DNA from: Opitutales bacterium
GTDB lineage: Bacteria; Verrucomicrobiota; Verrucomicrobiia; Opitutales; JABSRG01
Assembly (NCBI GenBank): GCA_028280845.1
Contig: JANQKZ010000062.1
Coordinates: 1-46,008 of the forward strand
Direction: 5' to 3'
DNA: 46,008 nt
The translations under genes were made by a program, and so were the position numbers. Of the stretch, positions 261-7,875 are shown piece after piece; the stretch's first letter is position 1; each line of letters starts with the position of its first letter. A model generated the notes under the pieces. The model had not been told where the DNA came from. It did no database searches and saw nothing but the letters and a program-made list of their open reading frames with translations.

Positions 261-3200
261 ATGAAATCTGAATTCACTCCCCGGGGAATCCTGAAAAGGT
301 CATTGGGTTTAATTATTTTCCTGTGGATACTGGGGATTACCTGGACCTTTCTCTCCCTTGTCAGGCCCCAACAAATCAAATCCCTAACCGAGGTGTTCTC
401 CTCAGGGACTGAGGTCTCCTGGAGCACGGTGAATTGGATTCTGCTCATCTTGCTCGCGGCCCAGTTCACCCTGTCCATTCTGACCTATTTTCAGGTTCGA
501 TTTACCAAGCGCCTGGTGGATGACGTGTATTACCGGTTTAATCTGAACCTTTTTGGACGGGCGATCCGGTTTAGCCCGGAGTTTTTCAGGCAACGGGATC
601 CGGAAGAAGTGAACAACCGGATCCTGGAAGAATCCCACATTGTCAGTAAATTTTACGTGACCACGCTCGTCTGGTTTCCCCTGACCTGCATCGATTTGAT
701 TGCATATGGGGCATATATGTTTTTCGTCAACTGGTCCCTCGCTCTTCTCGTCATCCCGCTGGCCTTTTTAAACGGGTATTTTCTCTTTTTTGATAAACGC
801 ATCCAGGCCATCAACCGGGAATCGCGCAGACACTGGGATGCGACCCGGGTTCGCTCGAAAGAGTGTATGCTGTCCGTGGAAGAATACCGGACCAACAATG
901 TGTTTGCTTACGGTCTTCACCTGCTGGGCGCCCCGCTCGAACGCTTCTGGCGGTCCCGGCACGAGATCAGTGCTCTGAAATCGCTTTTTCGAGCCGTATC
1001 GCCTGTAATCCAGATGATTCAGGATGGGGTGTTGCTCTGGGTAGGGGCGGCGCTATGCATCCTCACCCTTAAGGCACAGATGGGGGATGGTTTCGAAACG
1101 TCGTGGCCGGAGGTCATAGCTTTCATCGTGGTGGCGGGGATGTTTTTGAAACCGATTGAACGGTTTTCCCAGACCATCATCGATTGGCGTATGAACCGGG
1201 TTAACATCCGGCGGTTAGAGGAGTTTGAAAAGGAAGCGATCGCCTTTCCTGAGGAGGAACCAGAGGCTGCGGCTGAGCTGAAGACTTATGACATTACATT
1301 TGATGATGTTACGTTTACCACGCAATCCGGGTTCACGCTCCTCAATCGGCTGCAGTTTGAAGTTCCCTATGGAACCAAGGTGGCTCTGGTGGGCCCGGCA
1401 GGATGTGGCAAATCGACTATCATGCGGATGCTGGTGAAAGACTACCGTCCGAGCGAAGGAACGATCCGGTATGGGGAGGACTCGATTACGGGGATCACGC
1501 TGGCTGCGATTGCTTCAAAGATCGGGTATGTGGCGCAGCATCCTGTACTACAAAATGGAACCATCCGGGAAAACCTCCTCCTTGGCCTGCGAATGCCATC
1601 CACCTCCACCGTAGAGTTTGGAGGCTATCCCCTGGCGATCGATCATCTGACGGGGATTCAATCTCTTGACGATCTGGACCGGCGGATTTATGAGGTCATT
1701 GAATCGGTCGCGCTAACCAAAGATGTGTTCCGCAAAGGGTTGGATGGAGGCCATACCGGCGAATGGCCCCGGGCGGAAGCGGAACAGTTGAGAAGCCATG
1801 TAATGACTCAACTGGAGGATAAGAGTGGTCAGCTAATCGAACGGTTTTCCTTTGATTCTATCTTATGGGAAGGGCGGTTTGAAGATAACCTGCGGTTTGG
1901 GCTGCCCTGGGAACTCCACTTGCAGGATAAGTCCAGTTCGACACAGACTTTTGCCGCTTGGTTGCTTGGCCAGGATTCTCGCAAAGAGCTTGTCGAGCAA
2001 TTCCTCGGGCTGGCCATGACCTTCATCATTGAGGATGAAATTCTTCAAACCCGTCTGGGGCTCCAGCGAGAGGAAGACAACCCATCCGGGAGGACCCCCC
2101 GCGGGCAGCCCGAGGCCCATTCGCTTGTGGATCTGGAAACCATGAGTTCACAGGAGCGGGAAACAGTTTTGGCCTTTTTCCTTCAATTGGATTCCCGTAA
2201 AGTTTTTGAAAAACAGGATGACCCCGGCTTTGTCGATCGGGTTATCCAGATCAGGAAGTGGATCAGTGGAACCTTGAATCCGGATGGAACCCTGGCCGAC
2301 TTTACGAAGCCTCACCTTTGTGAAGCGTTATCCAATCGGGAACGCATTCTGTTGGGTCGGGTTAGATCGCGGAACTATCAGGCTACGGAAAAACTGGATC
2401 AGACGATCCTGACCGCGGCGGAAAGCCTTGGGCTCGTGTCCGTCATTATGGATTGGGGGCTGAATTATGAAATTGGGGAAAATGGGCGCTTCCTCTCCGG
2501 AGGCCAGCGACAGAAACTTGCCCTCGGGCGTGCCCTGATCAAAGAGCCAGAAATCCTCTTTCTTGATGAAGCGACATCGGCTCTGGATGAGATCTCTCAA
2601 CACCATGTTGTCCAATCGATCCAGCGCGCAATGGAAGGTAAAACCGTCATTGCGATCAGCCACCGGTTGTCCACTGTCGGGGCGGATGACCTGGTGCTCG
2701 TTCTGGATCGCGGCCGTCTCATCCAAAAGGGTGCATTTCGGGAGCTATCCACCCAGCCGGGTTTACTCCGCGAGCTGCTCGCACTCCATGAGCCGGAAAA
2801 AACCTTGCCCGACCTGTCGCCCACCGCAGCTTCCGCCGAGGACTTGGAGGAAGGGGTTATCAACTCTCTGTCCTCTATTGAGACGACCCTGTCCCGGTGC
2901 CCGTTGTTTGAGAACCTGGAATTTCCACATCTTCAGTTTCTAGCCGGGATCACCCGTGAGGTAGAAGTTTCTGCAGGGGAGATGCTTTTCCACAAAGGAG
3001 ATCCAGGTGAAGAATTTTTCGTTATTATCCAGGGGGAGGTAGCGTTTTTGGCGCCGACCGAAGATGTCAGCCTGGAGCCGTTGGAGATCGTTGATGTATA
3101 TGGACCGGGTGAAAGCTTTGGGGAAGTTGCCCTCTTCTCGGAAGGATTACGCACGCTGGGGGCCCGCGCCAACACGGACTTGTTGCTCGGGGTCATGCAT

Positions 3201-3302
3201 CGGGAGGATTTTCTGCAGGCTATCTCCAGAATTCCTGAGATAGGCGTGCAGCTTCTTGGAACCCTTGCCAGGCGTATTGCCTCTCTTCGTAATGTCGGAT
3301 AA
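261..3302 (+). CDS. ABC exporter (membrane domain + ATPase with large insertion) fused to a cyclic-nucleotide-binding domain
   Basis: A 1013-residue type IV-like ABC exporter half-transporter. About six hydrophobic helices lie in residues 12-305. The ATPase shows Walker A GPAGCGKST (K384), Q-loop Q426, signature LSGGQ (745-749), Walker B EILFLDE (D769, catalytic E770) and switch H801. Walker A and the signature are about 360 residues apart, against roughly 110-120 in an ordinary ABC ATPase, so about 250 residues are inserted after the Q-loop. The insert contains a second NLRFG element (543-547) echoing the first RENLLLG. The C-terminus (about 875-1005) is a Crp-type cNMP-binding domain whose phosphate cassette is intact: FGEVALF with E955, and R964. 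Known: such domains gate proteins by cAMP or cGMP. Inferred: transport is controlled by the product of the cyclase encoded next, whose start overlaps this stop by 11 bases. The substrate is unknown. Confidence 0.85.
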   Translation: MKSEFTPRGILKRSLGLIIFLWILGITWTFLSLVRPQQIKSLTEVFSSGTEVSWSTVNWILLILLAAQFTLSILTYFQVRFTKRLVDDVYYRFNLNLFGRAIRFSPEFFRQRDPEEVNNRILEESHIVSKFYVTTLVWFPLTCIDLIAYGAYMFFVNWSLALLVIPLAFLNGYFLFFDKRIQAINRESRRHWDATRVRSKECMLSVEEYRTNNVFAYGLHLLGAPLERFWRSRHEISALKSLFRAVSPVIQMIQDGVLLWVGAALCILTLKAQMGDGFETSWPEVIAFIVVAGMFLKPIERFSQTIIDWRMNRVNIRRLEEFEKEAIAFPEEEPEAAAELKTYDITFDDVTFTTQSGFTLLNRLQFEVPYGTKVALVGPAGCGKSTIMRMLVKDYRPSEGTIRYGEDSITGITLAAIASKIGYVAQHPVLQNGTIRENLLLGLRMPSTSTVEFGGYPLAIDHLTGIQSLDDLDRRIYEVIESVALTKDVFRKGLDGGHTGEWPRAEAEQLRSHVMTQLEDKSGQLIERFSFDSILWEGRFEDNLRFGLPWELHLQDKSSSTQTFAAWLLGQDSRKELVEQFLGLAMTFIIEDEILQTRLGLQREEDNPSGRTPRGQPEAHSLVDLETMSSQERETVLAFFLQLDSRKVFEKQDDPGFVDRVIQIRKWISGTLNPDGTLADFTKPHLCEALSNRERILLGRVRSRNYQATEKLDQTILTAAESLGLVSVIMDWGLNYEIGENGRFLSGGQRQKLALGRALIKEPEILFLDEATSALDEISQHHVVQSIQRAMEGKTVIAISHRLSTVGADDLVLVLDRGRLIQKGAFRELSTQPGLLRELLALHEPEKTLPDLSPTAASAEDLEEGVINSLSSIETTLSRCPLFENLEFPHLQFLAGITREVEVSAGEMLFHKGDPGEEFFVIIQGEVAFLAPTEDVSLEPLEIVDVYGPGESFGEVALFSEGLRTLGARANTDLLLGVMHREDFLQAISRIPEIGVQLLGTLARRIASLRNVG

Positions 3303-5541
3303 CCCGCAGCCTCCCGAATCCTCCGATTGGAAGCCACCCGCTGCTAAGCAAACCACCTTAGATGCCTTCCCGGATCTGCTGAAACCGTATGTGGAGGCCC
3401 TGGCAGAAGAGGTGCATAACCAATGGGCCCGGCGTCGGCATGAGGAGGGATGGCGGTATGGGCCGGAGCGCAATGATCGCCTCAAAGAGACCCCGACCAT
3501 GGTGGCTTACAGGGATTTATCCGAGGAGGAAAAGGCCTATGACCGTGCAACAGCGCTAGCTACGTTATCTTTCCTCATCGACCGGGGCCTTATCTTTGGG
3601 GATGAACCGAAAGCGGGAGACCCTCGGGGAAACTCGTTAGTCGAATGGCTCAACAGCCAGAACAAGCTCAACGCCCGGCGGGTGGAACAGATCTGGGAGA
3701 GCCGTGATCCAGAGACATGGAAACAGGAGCCCCAGGCTTATCGCTTCCTGGCGAGGTTGGCCTCCGGATTCGGGGCCCCCTTTCTCAGTTATGACATTGC
3801 GGCGGAAGGGTATGCGCTAAGGCGGGAGCATTTTTCCGATCGGACCGTCTTCAGTGATCTGGGGAATCAACAGGGCCTTTCCCTGCTGGAAACCGGAGCC
3901 CTGGATGGAGCCCGGCAATTGATTCAAAGTCTGAAAACAGATGGATTGGCTAATGCGGATACGGCTGGCCTGGAGGGTCGTATCTACAAGGCTTTGGGTC
4001 ACCACGAGGCCGATCCTGAAAAACGGCGACAGCATTTTAATCGCAGTATTGAGGCGTATGCTGGGCCCTTCGAGCGAGCATATCGTCGATACCGGGAACA
4101 GGGGGAAGTCTCAGCCGCAGGCGAGGCTTACTACCTGGGAATCAATGTGGCTACCCTGAGTTTGTTTGCCGGGGAAGGGGAGTCCTCCCGGGAGGTAGCG
4201 ATCCGGGTAAAAGCAGTTTGCTTGGAAACACTCAGGGCGGATGAAGCGGAAGGGCGAGAATCACCTCATTGGCTCTTGGCTACTCTGGGGGAGGCTGAGC
4301 TGTTGCTTAGGGAGTTGGAGTCTGCCCGAAGGTATTACCGCCGTGTGGTTGAGCTCGCAGGGAAGCAGGTGCGGGTCTTGAATTCCATGCGTAGGCAAGC
4401 GGTCCAGATTGCGCGGCATATGGGGATGAATCGGACGGAAATAGAGGCTTGGTTTAATCCACCACTCGTTTTGGTTATTCATGATCCGGGGAGTCCCAGG
4501 CTGCTGGAGGCATCTTTAAAGGCCCTGTTGGTCGAGGAACCGGCATCGGTTGTGGAAGTCTATGGAACCTTGTCCACGCAAAATGAATTGGCAGCGTGGT
4601 CTCTCCTTCATCGAGCAGGGTATTCGCTTTTTCCTACCTTACCGCTGGGACGCAAGCAGACCCTGGAACAGTTTTCCTCGGGACAGGAGCAGGCGGAGAT
4701 TAGGGAGATCCTCCACGCGGCTGACCGCCTGATCGGAGAAGTCACGGACATTGGTGAAGGGGAACGGCTGCCATTAGCGTATTTTCACCAATATCTGGAA
4801 GGTCAGGTAGCTCTGAGAAGCGAGAGCTTATCCGCCCGGGTCCGTCGGGTCATTCTGGGTGCGGAGTTAGCCTCTGCGCCAGCAAGTCCTTTAATCTCGA
4901 TATGGCACGCCGGGGATCTGGAAGTAGAAGCGGTTGCTGCGGCAGAGCACCCGGTTGTAGACCCGATTTCTGCGGGGCAGCCGGTGGTTGCCCGTTCTCC
5001 CTGGGTAATCCGAGCGATGCTCTTTTCTGATGCCAAGGGTTATGCGGAGTTGGATACGGCGGCCTTGCAGATCTTCAATGAGGCCTATCTCGGGGTGATT
5101 GGAGCGGTGACCGATGCCTACGACGATCAGCTCCTGTCTAAACGCACGGCGGGGGATGGTCTATTCCTTGTGTTTGATCGCCTGGAAAGCGCGGTCCGGC
5201 TTGCCCTCGATCTGAAAGACGGCCTTGCCAAAGTGAACTGGAATGCCCTGGGTATACCCGGAACGCTCGCCACGCGCACTTCCTTAGATGCGGGGCCCGT
5301 GTTGGTTTACCACGACCCCGTCATGCATAAGCCGGAGGTGGCTGGGCCCTTTGTCAATCGGGCGGCCCGAATAGAGCCCATAACCCCATTGGGAGAGATT
5401 TATGTCAGTGAAACCTTTGCCGCCCTGGTGCGCGCAAACCGAATAACCGGGGTGCAATTTGAATATGCCGGGGTGCATATCCTGCCGAAAGGTTATGGAA
5501 GTATCCCCCTTTACCGCATGGCCCGCACCTCGGGGCTATAG
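3292..5541 (+). CDS. RyR - TPR-S - SLOG-like - class III nucleotidyl cyclase
   Basis: The start is ATG 3292, overlapping the exporter stop, giving 749 residues; an upstream in-frame start at 3256 would overlap more. Residues 25-100 match the RyR domain (VHNQWARRR, GWRYG, VAYRDLSEEEKAYDRA). Residues about 145-385 match the TPR-S/DUF4071 repeats (YYLGINVATLSLFAG at 280, then WLLATLGEAELLL). Residues about 395-550 look like a diverged Rossmann/SLOG domain (weak). The C-terminus is a class III cyclase with both metal aspartates (D580 in FSDAKGY, D622 in AGDGLFLVF) and the transition-state pair N689/R693 in FVNRAAR. The base-selecting positions are unusual: Arg618 sits where adenylyl cyclases have Lys and Pro686 where they usually have Asp. 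It should therefore be active but make an uncertain nucleotide. No signal peptide or membrane segment is evident, so it is cytoplasmic. RyR and TPR-S are likely sensor modules. Confidence 0.82.
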   Translation: MSDNPQPPESSDWKPPAAKQTTLDAFPDLLKPYVEALAEEVHNQWARRRHEEGWRYGPERNDRLKETPTMVAYRDLSEEEKAYDRATALATLSFLIDRGLIFGDEPKAGDPRGNSLVEWLNSQNKLNARRVEQIWESRDPETWKQEPQAYRFLARLASGFGAPFLSYDIAAEGYALRREHFSDRTVFSDLGNQQGLSLLETGALDGARQLIQSLKTDGLANADTAGLEGRIYKALGHHEADPEKRRQHFNRSIEAYAGPFERAYRRYREQGEVSAAGEAYYLGINVATLSLFAGEGESSREVAIRVKAVCLETLRADEAEGRESPHWLLATLGEAELLLRELESARRYYRRVVELAGKQVRVLNSMRRQAVQIARHMGMNRTEIEAWFNPPLVLVIHDPGSPRLLEASLKALLVEEPASVVEVYGTLSTQNELAAWSLLHRAGYSLFPTLPLGRKQTLEQFSSGQEQAEIREILHAADRLIGEVTDIGEGERLPLAYFHQYLEGQVALRSESLSARVRRVILGAELASAPASPLISIWHAGDLEVEAVAAAEHPVVDPISAGQPVVARSPWVIRAMLFSDAKGYAELDTAALQIFNEAYLGVIGAVTDAYDDQLLSKRTAGDGLFLVFDRLESAVRLALDLKDGLAKVNWNALGIPGTLATRTSLDAGPVLVYHDPVMHKPEVAGPFVNRAARIEPITPLGEIYVSETFAALVRANRITGVQFEYAGVHILPKGYGSIPLYRMARTSGL

Positions 5542-5580
5542 ACTTGACCGAAGTATTCTCCAATTTAACTGTTTTCACCT

Positions 5581-6345
5581 ATGTCGGACTCTCCCTCTCT
5601 CGCTTCCCTTGAGCAAAAATTGGCCGACGTTTCCACATTACTCCTCGAGTTGAAGCACGACCTTGAACGGCTCAAAGGAACTCCTGCACCCGAGGCACCG
5701 ACCCTTCCACCCACCTTGGTGGCCTACCTCGGACTAGAGGAAAGCTGGGCCACGGATAAGGCTATGGAATGTGTGTTACAGGCGGCCATGCACACTGTCG
5801 GTGGACAGGGTGCCGGTCTGACGCTTTATCAAGCTGAAACCGAACGATTAGTGTTTCGAGCCGCTATCGGTGATGGATCCGAGGGCATTCTGGGATACGA
5901 AGTCCCTGTAGATCGATCCCAGCATGGACTGGCATTTGCCACCGGAGAAATCCAGGCATCTAAGCCGCTGCACAGCGAAATTGAGCAATCCGCCGGTGTG
6001 GCGTACACGAGCGTGCTGGTGGCTCCGTTGATTAGCGGCGAGGATCCCATCGGAACCATCAGTGTCGTCAACAAGCGAGACGGAACCGGGTTTTCCCCAG
6101 GCGATATCGAGGCTTTCCAGCCTTTTTCCGAATTGGCGGCTCAAATTGTCATGCAGAAAACCCGTGAGCAGGCGATACTCCAGGGCATCCGCGAGGGGAG
6201 GTTGGAGGATGATGCTGGTGGCCTTGCCGTGAACCCGGAAGAACAGGCCATCTTAGGACTCGTGGAAGTGCTGGCCCCGATGGTGGGGAAGTCCGATCCC
6301 CTCTTGCAGGCGATCCGAAATCTGATTCAGTCCATTCCTCGCTAA
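5581..6345 (+). CDS. Coiled-coil / GAF-domain protein
   Basis: 254 residues. The N-terminus (about 5-36) is a heptad-rich helix able to form a coiled coil. Residues about 55-200 read as one GAF domain, with the typical core GAGLTLYQAETERLVFRAA, a GLAFATGE helix, a VAPLISGEDPIGTISVVNK strand pair, and an FSPGDIEAFQPFSELAAQI end. The last 50 residues form amphipathic helices. There is no output domain, so it is probably a dimeric ligand-binding adaptor. GAF domains bind cyclic nucleotides, haem or other small molecules; which one cannot be seen. It lies 39 bases after the cyclase stop and its TAA is followed at once by the protease ATG, which ties it to the cassette. No Shine-Dalgarno site is clear before its ATG. 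Confidence 0.8.
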   Translation: MSDSPSLASLEQKLADVSTLLLELKHDLERLKGTPAPEAPTLPPTLVAYLGLEESWATDKAMECVLQAAMHTVGGQGAGLTLYQAETERLVFRAAIGDGSEGILGYEVPVDRSQHGLAFATGEIQASKPLHSEIEQSAGVAYTSVLVAPLISGEDPIGTISVVNKRDGTGFSPGDIEAFQPFSELAAQIVMQKTREQAILQGIREGRLEDDAGGLAVNPEEQAILGLVEVLAPMVGKSDPLLQAIRNLIQSIPR

Positions 6346-7113
6346 ATGCCTCCCATTATTCATCCGGACATCTCTATTGACTGGCTGAGATCCCATGCCA
6401 CGGGAAAAGGGGTTCGTGTCGCAGTCATCGACAGCGGCATTGATGCTACTCATCCGGATTTTGGTGATTCGGTTCACGGGGGTTGCCGGATTTTCAAAGG
6501 AGAGGACGGGCAGACTCAGGTTGAGGAAGTTGCGGCTGGCACTGTCAATGATACCTTCGGCCATGGTACGGCTGTAGCGGGCATTATTCATGATCTTGCC
6601 CCCGATGCGGAGATCGTGGATGTCAAAGTCCTGGATGCGTTTAATACCTGTACGGGTGACATTCTCATCGCAGGGGCAAAATGGGCTTTGGATCATGGAT
6701 TTCGGGTGATCAACATGAGCCTGGCTACCGCCAAACGTCAGTGGTTCCAACCGCTGTTTGAGGTTTGTGAGCAGGCATACATTCAAAACAGTATCCTGGT
6801 GGTATCCAAAAAGAATTTCGGACACATGGGGTGTCCGGCAATGTTTTCCAGTGTGATCTCGGTGGATCGCGAGGATTATATGGACAAGTTTCAGGTGCAC
6901 TATCGGCCCCATAACATTATTGAATATGATGCCCGAGGTACCCAGGTCCAGACGCTTGCCCCCGGCGGGGGCTATGTGGAGCAAACTGGAACCAGTTTTG
7001 CCACTCCGCATGTCAGTGGATTAGTGTCCTTGCTTCTCGAGCAATTTCCGGAAATGAATCCAGTGGAGGCCAAGGCAGTCTTAAAGAGCCTATCTCAAGG
7101 ACGGGCCCCATAG
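6346..7113 (+). CDS. Minimal cytoplasmic subtilisin-like (S8) serine protease
   Basis: 255 residues with a complete S8 triad: D29 (VAVIDSGID), H73 (FGHGTAVAGI) and S217 (GTSFATPH), plus oxyanion N157 in SKKNFGHMGCPAMF. It begins directly with the catalytic fold: no signal peptide, no inhibitor I9 prodomain and no C-terminal extension, whereas secreted subtilisins usually have both signal and prodomain. It is therefore expected to be intracellular and active without maturation, or held by a partner such as the GAF protein whose stop codon abuts this ATG. The target is unknown; other products of the cassette or a host factor are possible. Translation probably depends on coupling, as no ribosome site is visible. 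Confidence 0.88.
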   Translation: MPPIIHPDISIDWLRSHATGKGVRVAVIDSGIDATHPDFGDSVHGGCRIFKGEDGQTQVEEVAAGTVNDTFGHGTAVAGIIHDLAPDAEIVDVKVLDAFNTCTGDILIAGAKWALDHGFRVINMSLATAKRQWFQPLFEVCEQAYIQNSILVVSKKNFGHMGCPAMFSSVISVDREDYMDKFQVHYRPHNIIEYDARGTQVQTLAPGGGYVEQTGTSFATPHVSGLVSLLLEQFPEMNPVEAKAVLKSLSQGRAP

Positions 7114-7161
7114 GTTTTTTTTCCTCATGCCATATCCCCGGGATTGCTAAACGAGCCGGGG
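7089..7161 (+). terminator. Possible terminator(s) closing the cyclase/protease cassette
   Basis: Two elements follow each other. The first is CCTAT (7089-7093) pairing with ATAGG (7110-7114), followed directly by eight T (7115-7122); the stem is weak but the T-run is good. The second is CCCCGG (7136-7141) pairing with CCGGGG (7156-7161) around a 14-base loop, without a T-run. Together they suggest a transcript end between the protease and the HAD gene. Confidence 0.4.
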
Positions 7162-7179
7162 CAATTTACGAGAGAAGAT

Positions 7180-7875
7180 ATGCGACCCACTTGGCTGGCT
7201 TTTGATGCAGATGATACCCTCTGGGTAAATGAGCCCTTTTTCTTTCAAGCGCAGGACCGGTTGGAGGAGCTCCTCAAACCGTATGCCGATTTCAGCGAGG
7301 AGGCCATGGTTGATGCGCTCTATCGGGTAGAGCGGAAGAACCTTGGCCTGTTTGGTTATGGGGCGAAGGGCTTTACGCTCTCTATGATCGAAAGTGCGAT
7401 TGAGCTGTCCGGGGGTAAGGTGACGGCCCAGGACATTCAGCAGATTCTCGATTGGGGCAAGGGCGTCATGGGTTATCCTATCGAGTTGTTCGATGAGGTG
7501 GACGAGCTGTTGCCTCGGTTAAAGCAAGACTACCGGATGATGATCATCACTAAGGGCGAACTGTTTAATCAGGAGAGCAAAATTGCTCGCTCCGGCCTGG
7601 CCCAGCATTTTGAGATCATTGAGATTGTTTCAGAAAAAGACCCTGAGACGTATCGCAAAATCCTGGAGCGTCATGCCATTGAACCTGGCGAGGTTTTGAT
7701 GATCGGAAACTCTATTCGATCCGATATCCTCCCCTGTGTAGAAATTGGGATACAGGCCGTCCATATTCCGCGAGTCGTCTACTGGCAGCATGAGACCGTG
7801 GATAGTACGGGAAATGCAGAATTTGGAGTGATCGATTCCTTGCAGGATCTTCCGGCGTATTTGAATAATCTGTAA
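7180..7875 (+). CDS. HAD-superfamily hydrolase (phosphatase-like)
   Basis: 231 residues from ATG 7180, preceded by a purine-rich AGAGAAG ribosome site; a longer form from TTG 7144 would run into the hairpin and lose that site. Motif I is FDADDTLW (nucleophile D9, acid D11), motif II lies in MMIITKGE, and motif IV is MIGNSIRSDI. A helical cap follows motif I, as in the YjjG/phosphoglycolate phosphatase group. It probably dephosphorylates a small phosphorylated metabolite such as a nucleotide or sugar phosphate. It follows the cyclase cassette on the same strand but after candidate terminators, so membership in that system is open; a role in turning over a nucleotide messenger is only speculation. 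Confidence 0.85.
   Translation: MRPTWLAFDADDTLWVNEPFFFQAQDRLEELLKPYADFSEEAMVDALYRVERKNLGLFGYGAKGFTLSMIESAIELSGGKVTAQDIQQILDWGKGVMGYPIELFDEVDELLPRLKQDYRMMIITKGELFNQESKIARSGLAQHFEIIEIVSEKDPETYRKILERHAIEPGEVLMIGNSIRSDILPCVEIGIQAVHIPRVVYWQHETVDSTGNAEFGVIDSLQDLPAYLNNL

Follow-up and report, generated by a model that had tools for sequence, protein, structure and literature searches.

A gene for a GAF-domain protein and a gene for a subtilisin-like protease of the S8 family form one conserved two-gene unit. This is shown by their recurrent pairing, their spread over phyla, their overlapping or abutting reading frames, the retained catalytic residues and the lack of both a prodomain and a calcium-site-A loop in the protease. 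The unit lies in the window, by which the whole stretch of DNA analysed is meant (46,008 nucleotides from an Opitutales bacterium, contig JANQKZ010000062.1). The GAF protein is probably the dedicated, ligand-responsive regulator of the protease, working by inhibition or by activation. Control by the GAF protein is favoured because the protease has a single constant companion, a sensor-type domain connected to varied signalling inputs. The features of the pair are as follows.

5581..6345, + strand: GAF protein, 254 aa, proposed dedicated regulator (Pfam, AlphaFold2 model, Foldseek)
6070..6105, + strand: N164, K165, F171 and D175, four of the five NKFDE residues, the E position being I176 (sequence)
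6343..6348, + strand: stop-start junction TAA/ATG, gap 0, same frame (sequence)
6346..7113, + strand: S8 subtilase, 255 aa, ATG start, no evident signal peptide, no prodomain
6430..6432, + strand: catalytic Asp29 (sequence and homologue alignment)
6562..6564, + strand: catalytic His73 (sequence and homologue alignment)
6562..6603, + strand: H73 to A85-P86, lacking the nine-residue calcium-site-A loop that secreted subtilisins have here (counted spacing; meaning according to excerpts of PMC4865297)
6814..6816, + strand: oxyanion-hole Asn157 (sequence and homologue alignment)
6994..6996, + strand: catalytic Ser217 (sequence and homologue alignment)

The protease and its junction with the GAF gene

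The protease matches Pfam Peptidase_S8 (PF00082) over residues 20-247, which places it in the S8 family; the score of 104.1 bits (cut-off 21.8) is far beyond chance. All 21 aligned homologues keep D29, H73, N157 and S217. Approximately 19 residues lie N-terminal to the catalytic domain, which fills the rest of the protein. Among 73 paired proteases, the most hydrophobic 12-residue segments within the first 35 residues do not exceed a mean Kyte-Doolittle value of 1.43. The genome of the window holds one protease of the GAF-paired kind; its three other S8 matches are open frames of 1,137 to 1,955 residues with E about 1e-5. A PHROGs scan assigned the S8 protein to a phage protease family and the GAF protein to nothing.

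The junction reads ...cctcgctaaATGcctccc, with the GAF stop TAA at 6343-6345 and the protease ATG at 6346-6348. An earlier note on this DNA had described a protease with all four catalytic residues within 255 residues, lacking a signal peptide and a prodomain, whose start codon touches the stop of a GAF gene directly before it. This description is borne out in each respect: the four residues are confirmed, the short N-terminus carries no evident signal peptide, the two codons abut with a gap of 0, and the upstream product is a true GAF protein with both Pfam models above cut-off.

Conservation of the gene pair

Within the same class, 35 of 384 genomes carry a relative of the window protease at E 1e-22 or better. 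A single-sequence search of genome contigs with the window protease returned no relatives, and a profile built on 21 relatives gave 80 loci from these contigs. Two profiles, A1 for the protease and A2 for the upstream neighbours, were searched against 121 sources, namely the window and 120 loci (numbered with an L below). After the removal of three duplicates, 80 proteases score at least 170 and are treated as the family, with 38 low scorers beneath; this threshold was set after the scores were seen, and L135, at 165, falls in the low group. The strict pattern for the Asp, His and Ser motifs is present in 72 of the 80 family members, and four more have variants on inspection. Gene starts were taken from our own gene calling, and individual intergenic gaps may be off.

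A GAF-type gene lies directly upstream on the same strand in 75 of the 80 family proteases, 73 of them recognised by profile, with L045 and L115 in addition. In L045 the upstream protein shares 95.6% identity with the receiver-GAF protein of L044, and in L115 it is a GAF protein of divergent type (96% probability, E 2.7e-9, with a profile of L115 plus L135). The remaining five comprise one protease at a contig end (L079), two fused to DUF1611 (L098, L106) and two with no adjacent GAF gene (L059, L084). The two fused relatives (L098:2954-4879 and L106:367-2412) have no GAF gene, and the fusion is possibly another mode of control. The A2 profile alone finds the partner in 35 of 40 loci whose neighbours did not go into A2. 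None of the 38 low scorers has a GAF gene upstream by profile, a count that holds for the profile only because L135, the top low scorer, proves on inspection to be paired, with an upstream protein 50% identical to that of L115. Independently of our own profile, Pfam GAF_2 recognises 26 of the 28 sequences in A6 and 19 of the 27 in A2; Pfam finds no GAF in the partner proteins of L071 and L115.

Could two unrelated genes be adjacent by chance? Nothing speaks for this beyond the two relatives without a GAF gene, L059 and L084, and the frequency in the family stands against 0 of 1,313 other genes of the same loci with a GAF-profile gene directly upstream. Chance adjacency is thus extremely improbable and is ruled out by the conserved pairing.

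The pairs are spread over at least six phyla. By record title they occur in Verrucomicrobia, Chloroflexi, Actinomycetes, Acidobacteria (L085, L095), Phycisphaerales (L109) and Polyangia-type records (L115, L135), with further pairs in a delta proteobacterium (L078) and a record named CPR1 (L080). The two genes overlap in 44 of 73 pairs, by exactly 4 bp in 25, and at many loci they stand as a bare two-gene unit with no further operon genes. The GAF and S8 distance matrices are correlated, with a rho of 0.647 over the 73 pairs and 0.619 over 29 divergent ones (no permutation out of 2,000 reached the observed value in either set), a correlation that indicates common descent of GAF and S8 as a unit, not contact.

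The calcium-site-A loop

In each of the 76 family members measured, GHGT and AP are 9 residues apart; read by eye, three of the four unmeasured members agree. In the 25 low scorers measured the spacing is 15-21, one of them (L135) being mis-measured. Secreted subtilisins have nine more residues at this site, matching the calcium-site-A loop 75-83. In subtilisin BPN', deletion of loop 75-83 greatly speeds folding (PMC4865297, in excerpt). The absence of these nine residues from almost all family members fits a prodomain-free cytoplasmic enzyme, as engineered loss of the loop speeds folding, and the protease therefore probably folds without a prodomain. From this we infer that the GAF-paired family folds without either prodomain or calcium. 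A Foldseek search with the protease model gave ten best chains of 263-269 residues, including 1suc, the title of which names a calcium-independent subtilisin by design, and 3bgo, a deletion 75-83 variant according to its authors (PMC7935941, in excerpt).

The GAF protein

In the AlphaFold2 model (mean pLDDT 82.6), the window GAF protein consists of an N-terminal helix, a GAF domain at 62-190 and a C-terminal helical tail at 208-251. Over residues 62-190, Pfam GAF_2 (PF13185) scores 30.8 bits against 28.6 and GAF (PF01590) 29.2 against 22.4. The top Foldseek match is the Lcd1 GAF-cAMP complex (5w10); the GAF domains of PDE2A, CyaB2 and PDE10A are within the first nine matches, and the DevS GAF is close behind.

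N164, K165, F171 and D175 were placed by the residue spacing of the NKFDE motif. NKFDE is described as the motif of cNMP-binding GAF domains (PMC4411481, in excerpt). At the aligned columns, the N/D-K/R-F-D pattern is found in 20 of 73 GAF partners, and cNMP binding cannot therefore be general among them.

An AlphaFold2 model of the GAF-S8 read-through fusion reached a pTM of 0.56. The single domains are confident, their mutual orientation is not, and there is no confident interface, a result that speaks neither for nor against contact; the GAF tail (residues 210-260) has block means of 41-53 pLDDT.

Genomic surroundings of the pair

Two further genes precede the pair in the window.

261..3302, + strand: ABC exporter, first gene of the visible operon, with the contig edge just upstream (Pfam, NCBIfam)
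3292..5541, + strand: RyR, TPR-S and class III cyclase-like protein, 749 aa (Pfam)

As the window begins at contig base 1, the operon may be cut upstream. The exporter matches ABC_membrane, ABC_tran in two stretches and, at its C-terminus (residues 901-989), cNMP_binding with 60.1 bits against 27.5. Its nucleotide-binding domain is split by an insert of approximately 230 aa, with ABC_tran at 361-487 and the C-terminal half from about 715; relatives of the exporter beside the pairs of L076 and L080 have this domain uninterrupted. In NCBIfam its nearest models describe peptide/lipid exporters, and none reaches its cut-off; the best is NHLM_micro_ABC1.

The gene for the cyclase-like protein overlaps that of the exporter by 11 bp. 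Its product scores 66.8 bits for RyR, 40.2 for TPR-S and 14.7 for Guanylate_cyc, the last below the cut-off of 21.9. In an alignment with relatives that also adjoin GAF-S8 pairs, the window protein keeps the cyclase positions FSD, AGDG and VNRAAR, presumably including the catalytic ones. Relatives of the cyclase lie at most two genes from the protease in 7 of 80 loci (window, L056, L060, L071, L073, L097 and L110), and that of L073 has lost cyclase residues. Exporters with cNMP domains are found within four genes in 8 of 80 (window, L076, L083, L088, L093, L094, L096 and L112), and none were found in loci without the protease family. Four loci of Chloroflexi records have MFS_3 transporters with a C-terminal cNMP-binding domain near the pair (L083:7784-9490, L093:3183-4844, L094:6833-8512, L096:7878-9671).

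Other loci have other neighbours. In L044 a receiver domain is part of the GAF partner, and a histidine kinase gene lies immediately upstream of it; this, together with the near-identical partner of L045, marks the GAF partner as a signalling protein. In many Verrucomicrobia loci a protein of 73-91 aa precedes the GAF gene, and in several a sigma-70-like gene is also present. A recurring Verrucomicrobia module of sigma-70-like protein, 73-91 aa protein, GAF and S8 is seen at L052:7293-9805, L060:7729-10283 and L074:7917-10261, the sigma-70-like proteins having been checked by Pfam in L052 and L060. The 73-91 aa protein of this module has no Pfam match and could be an anti-sigma factor or a substrate. 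In the Polyangia-type loci L115:6195-9494 and L135:6240-9410, a divergent GAF, the S8 protease and a repeat-rich-looking protein of approximately 560-580 aa are tightly ordered.

A lanthipeptide-like locus of a Ktedonobacterales record (L089:2307-11751) runs from two short ORFs and a RamC/LanC synthetase through GAF and S8 to a leucine-rich repeat protein, an MFS protein and a tryptophan halogenase. The operons L040:9326-18179 and L041:1330-10172 also encode an unknown 446-aa protein between ABC exporter and GAF, and one radical SAM protein of L040 is nearest to PapB, with the QHNDH maturase third. The L040/L041 operon looks like an undescribed peptide pathway. The neighbours thus vary widely (sigma factor, RiPP enzymes, ABC, MFS), and no single substrate or pathway follows from them.

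Proposed regulation of the protease

In the proposed mechanism, the GAF protein would act in trans on a cytoplasmic subtilisin that lacks the calcium-site-A loop, binding the protease and switching it on or off when the GAF domain binds a small ligand. In the window, the likeliest ligand would be a cyclic nucleotide from the adjoining TPR-S/cyclase protein, which the cNMP domain of the exporter may also read. The likeliest task would be a limited cleavage of a peptide or protein ahead of its export or activation, the ABC exporter being the putative handler of this substrate. Some observations count against regulation by the GAF protein: L059 and L084 keep the protease without an adjacent GAF gene, and the Verrucomicrobia type with sigma factors lacks the C-terminal GAF tail, an obvious inhibitor candidate. 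The match of the window cyclase domain below the Pfam cut-off counts against the cyclic-nucleotide part. A fuller version of that part, in which the cyclase product binds both the GAF domain, releasing or activating the subtilisin, and the exporter domain, so that cutting and export of a peptide are switched together and, more widely, GAF-S8 serves in at least six phyla as a reusable signal-to-proteolysis module connected to sigma factors, phosphorelays and peptide pathways, is considered improbable.

The earlier note had proposed a GAF-regulated protease or a protease-inhibitor pair. The functional coupling in this proposal stands, and is well supported because the family proteases so regularly follow a GAF gene; the refuting condition set by the note itself, homologues always without the GAF gene, clearly fails. 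The proposal as a whole is partly supported, physical interaction and inhibition being its predicted, more specific parts. In its strict form, as in a toxin-antitoxin system or PopC-PopD, the GAF protein would be a stoichiometric inhibitor, and the free, putatively harmful protease would be released on a signal. The regulator-first order and overlapping genes suit co-translation and stoichiometric binding, bare two-gene units are common, and PopD binds and restrains PopC (PMC6434023, in excerpt). Set against these points, the PADLOC matches are weak (subtilase and IetS only), which also gives no known defence protease, and sequence does not separate inhibition from activation; the strict form is rather unlikely. 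Instead of inhibiting the protease, the GAF protein may activate, chaperone or target it. One such role, as a folding chaperone or activator in trans standing in for the missing prodomain, would suit a family without a prodomain, and the zero or negative gap would put the GAF protein on site during translation. This role is nevertheless unlikely, with two members having no adjacent GAF gene and two being fused to DUF1611, and a folding helper may not be needed, because loss of the site-A loop alone speeds subtilisin folding (PMC4865297, in excerpt).

It is also conceivable, if doubtful, that GAF-S8 is a maturation peptidase for ribosomal peptides or proteins that works like QhpE and trims off a leader inside the cytoplasm, ahead of export, with the GAF protein recognising or timing the substrate and not sensing a second messenger. 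In L089 the stretch directly upstream of the pair contains two short ORFs, one of which weakly matches the NHLP clan, and a gene for a lanthipeptide synthetase with RamC_N, kinase and LanC-like parts. L040 and L041 have a 74-aa ORF, a B12-radical SAM and two radical SAM genes, an ABC exporter, GAF and S8 (domains scanned in L040), and L112 has a C39-cNMP-ABC exporter two genes further on. The nearest model of the window exporter, NHLM_micro_ABC1, points the same way, although a match below cut-off indicates an exporter and nothing more. Modification enzymes occur in only 3 of 80 loci among the genes examined, and the window shows no RiPP modification enzyme among the five proteins scanned (261 to 7875), its upstream side ending with the contig. 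The window protease scores 107.6 bits with the QhpE model (NF049966), below its cut-off of 165, and the model is unspecific at this level, as longer S8 proteins of relatives reach 95-111 bits beside 107 for the window.

Regulation by the GAF protein remains the preferred reading. There are few worked examples of how bacteria keep an active cytoplasmic subtilisin harmless. A compact family with a dedicated sensor gene, kept across phyla, brings this question within reach of tests on two small proteins and a panel of ligands. The family also offers possible new leader peptidases for peptide biosynthesis, and natural counterparts of engineered calcium-free subtilisins.

Comparison with known systems

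No paper on a GAF-S8 gene pair was found in searches of an open-access library, subscription journals lying mostly outside the search. Among papers on conflict systems, the excerpts of PMC7159879 hold GAF domains, cNMP domains and one S8-NucA association, and no GAF-S8 pair, and those of PMC8195603 hold none of the GAF-S8-related terms. GAF does not occur in a review of leader peptidases (PMC10885120). By the tests made, the window proteins belong to the S8 family and the GAF superfamily, and the protease is not QhpE, mycosin (TIGR03921, 113.2 bits against 278.75) or intracellular subtilisin.

QhpE, the leader peptidase of quinohemoprotein amine dehydrogenase, is likewise a cytoplasmic subtilisin-like protein encoded beside an ABC exporter. 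The excerpts of PMC7876137 name no GAF gene for the qhp operon, and the window operon, for its part, shows no radical SAM gene. The intracellular subtilisins of Bacillus and Planococcus are also cytoplasmic and lack a signal peptide or classical prodomain, but their N-terminus bears an inhibitory LIPY/F pro-peptide and they retain the metal site of high affinity (PMC6220982, in excerpt). The window protein shows neither, and the absence of the LIPY/F pro-peptide from its N-terminus sets it apart from that group.

Cyclic AMP- and GMP-binding GAF domains (Lcd1, PDE2A, CyaB2, PDE10A) are the best fold matches of the window GAF domain, in which N, K, F and D of NKFDE occur; sequence identity in the alignments is 13-20%. 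The window GAF is a separate protein beside a protease and is not fused to a cyclase or phosphodiesterase.

In outline, and by description alone, GAF-S8 resembles PopC-PopD of Myxococcus xanthus, in which PopC, a subtilisin-type protease without a signal peptide, is restrained by its partner. PopD binds to PopC, whose secretion it holds back until starvation (PMC6434023, in excerpt). PopC is a secreted protein of 50.8 kDa with an extra N-terminal part, while the window protease is a bare domain of 255 aa. The engineered calcium-independent subtilisin BPN' (deletion 75-83), among the best fold matches, has the same shortening by nine residues between the catalytic His and AP. In contrast to this designed enzyme, the window family is natural and cytoplasmic, is about 30% identical to it, and has a GAF partner of its own.
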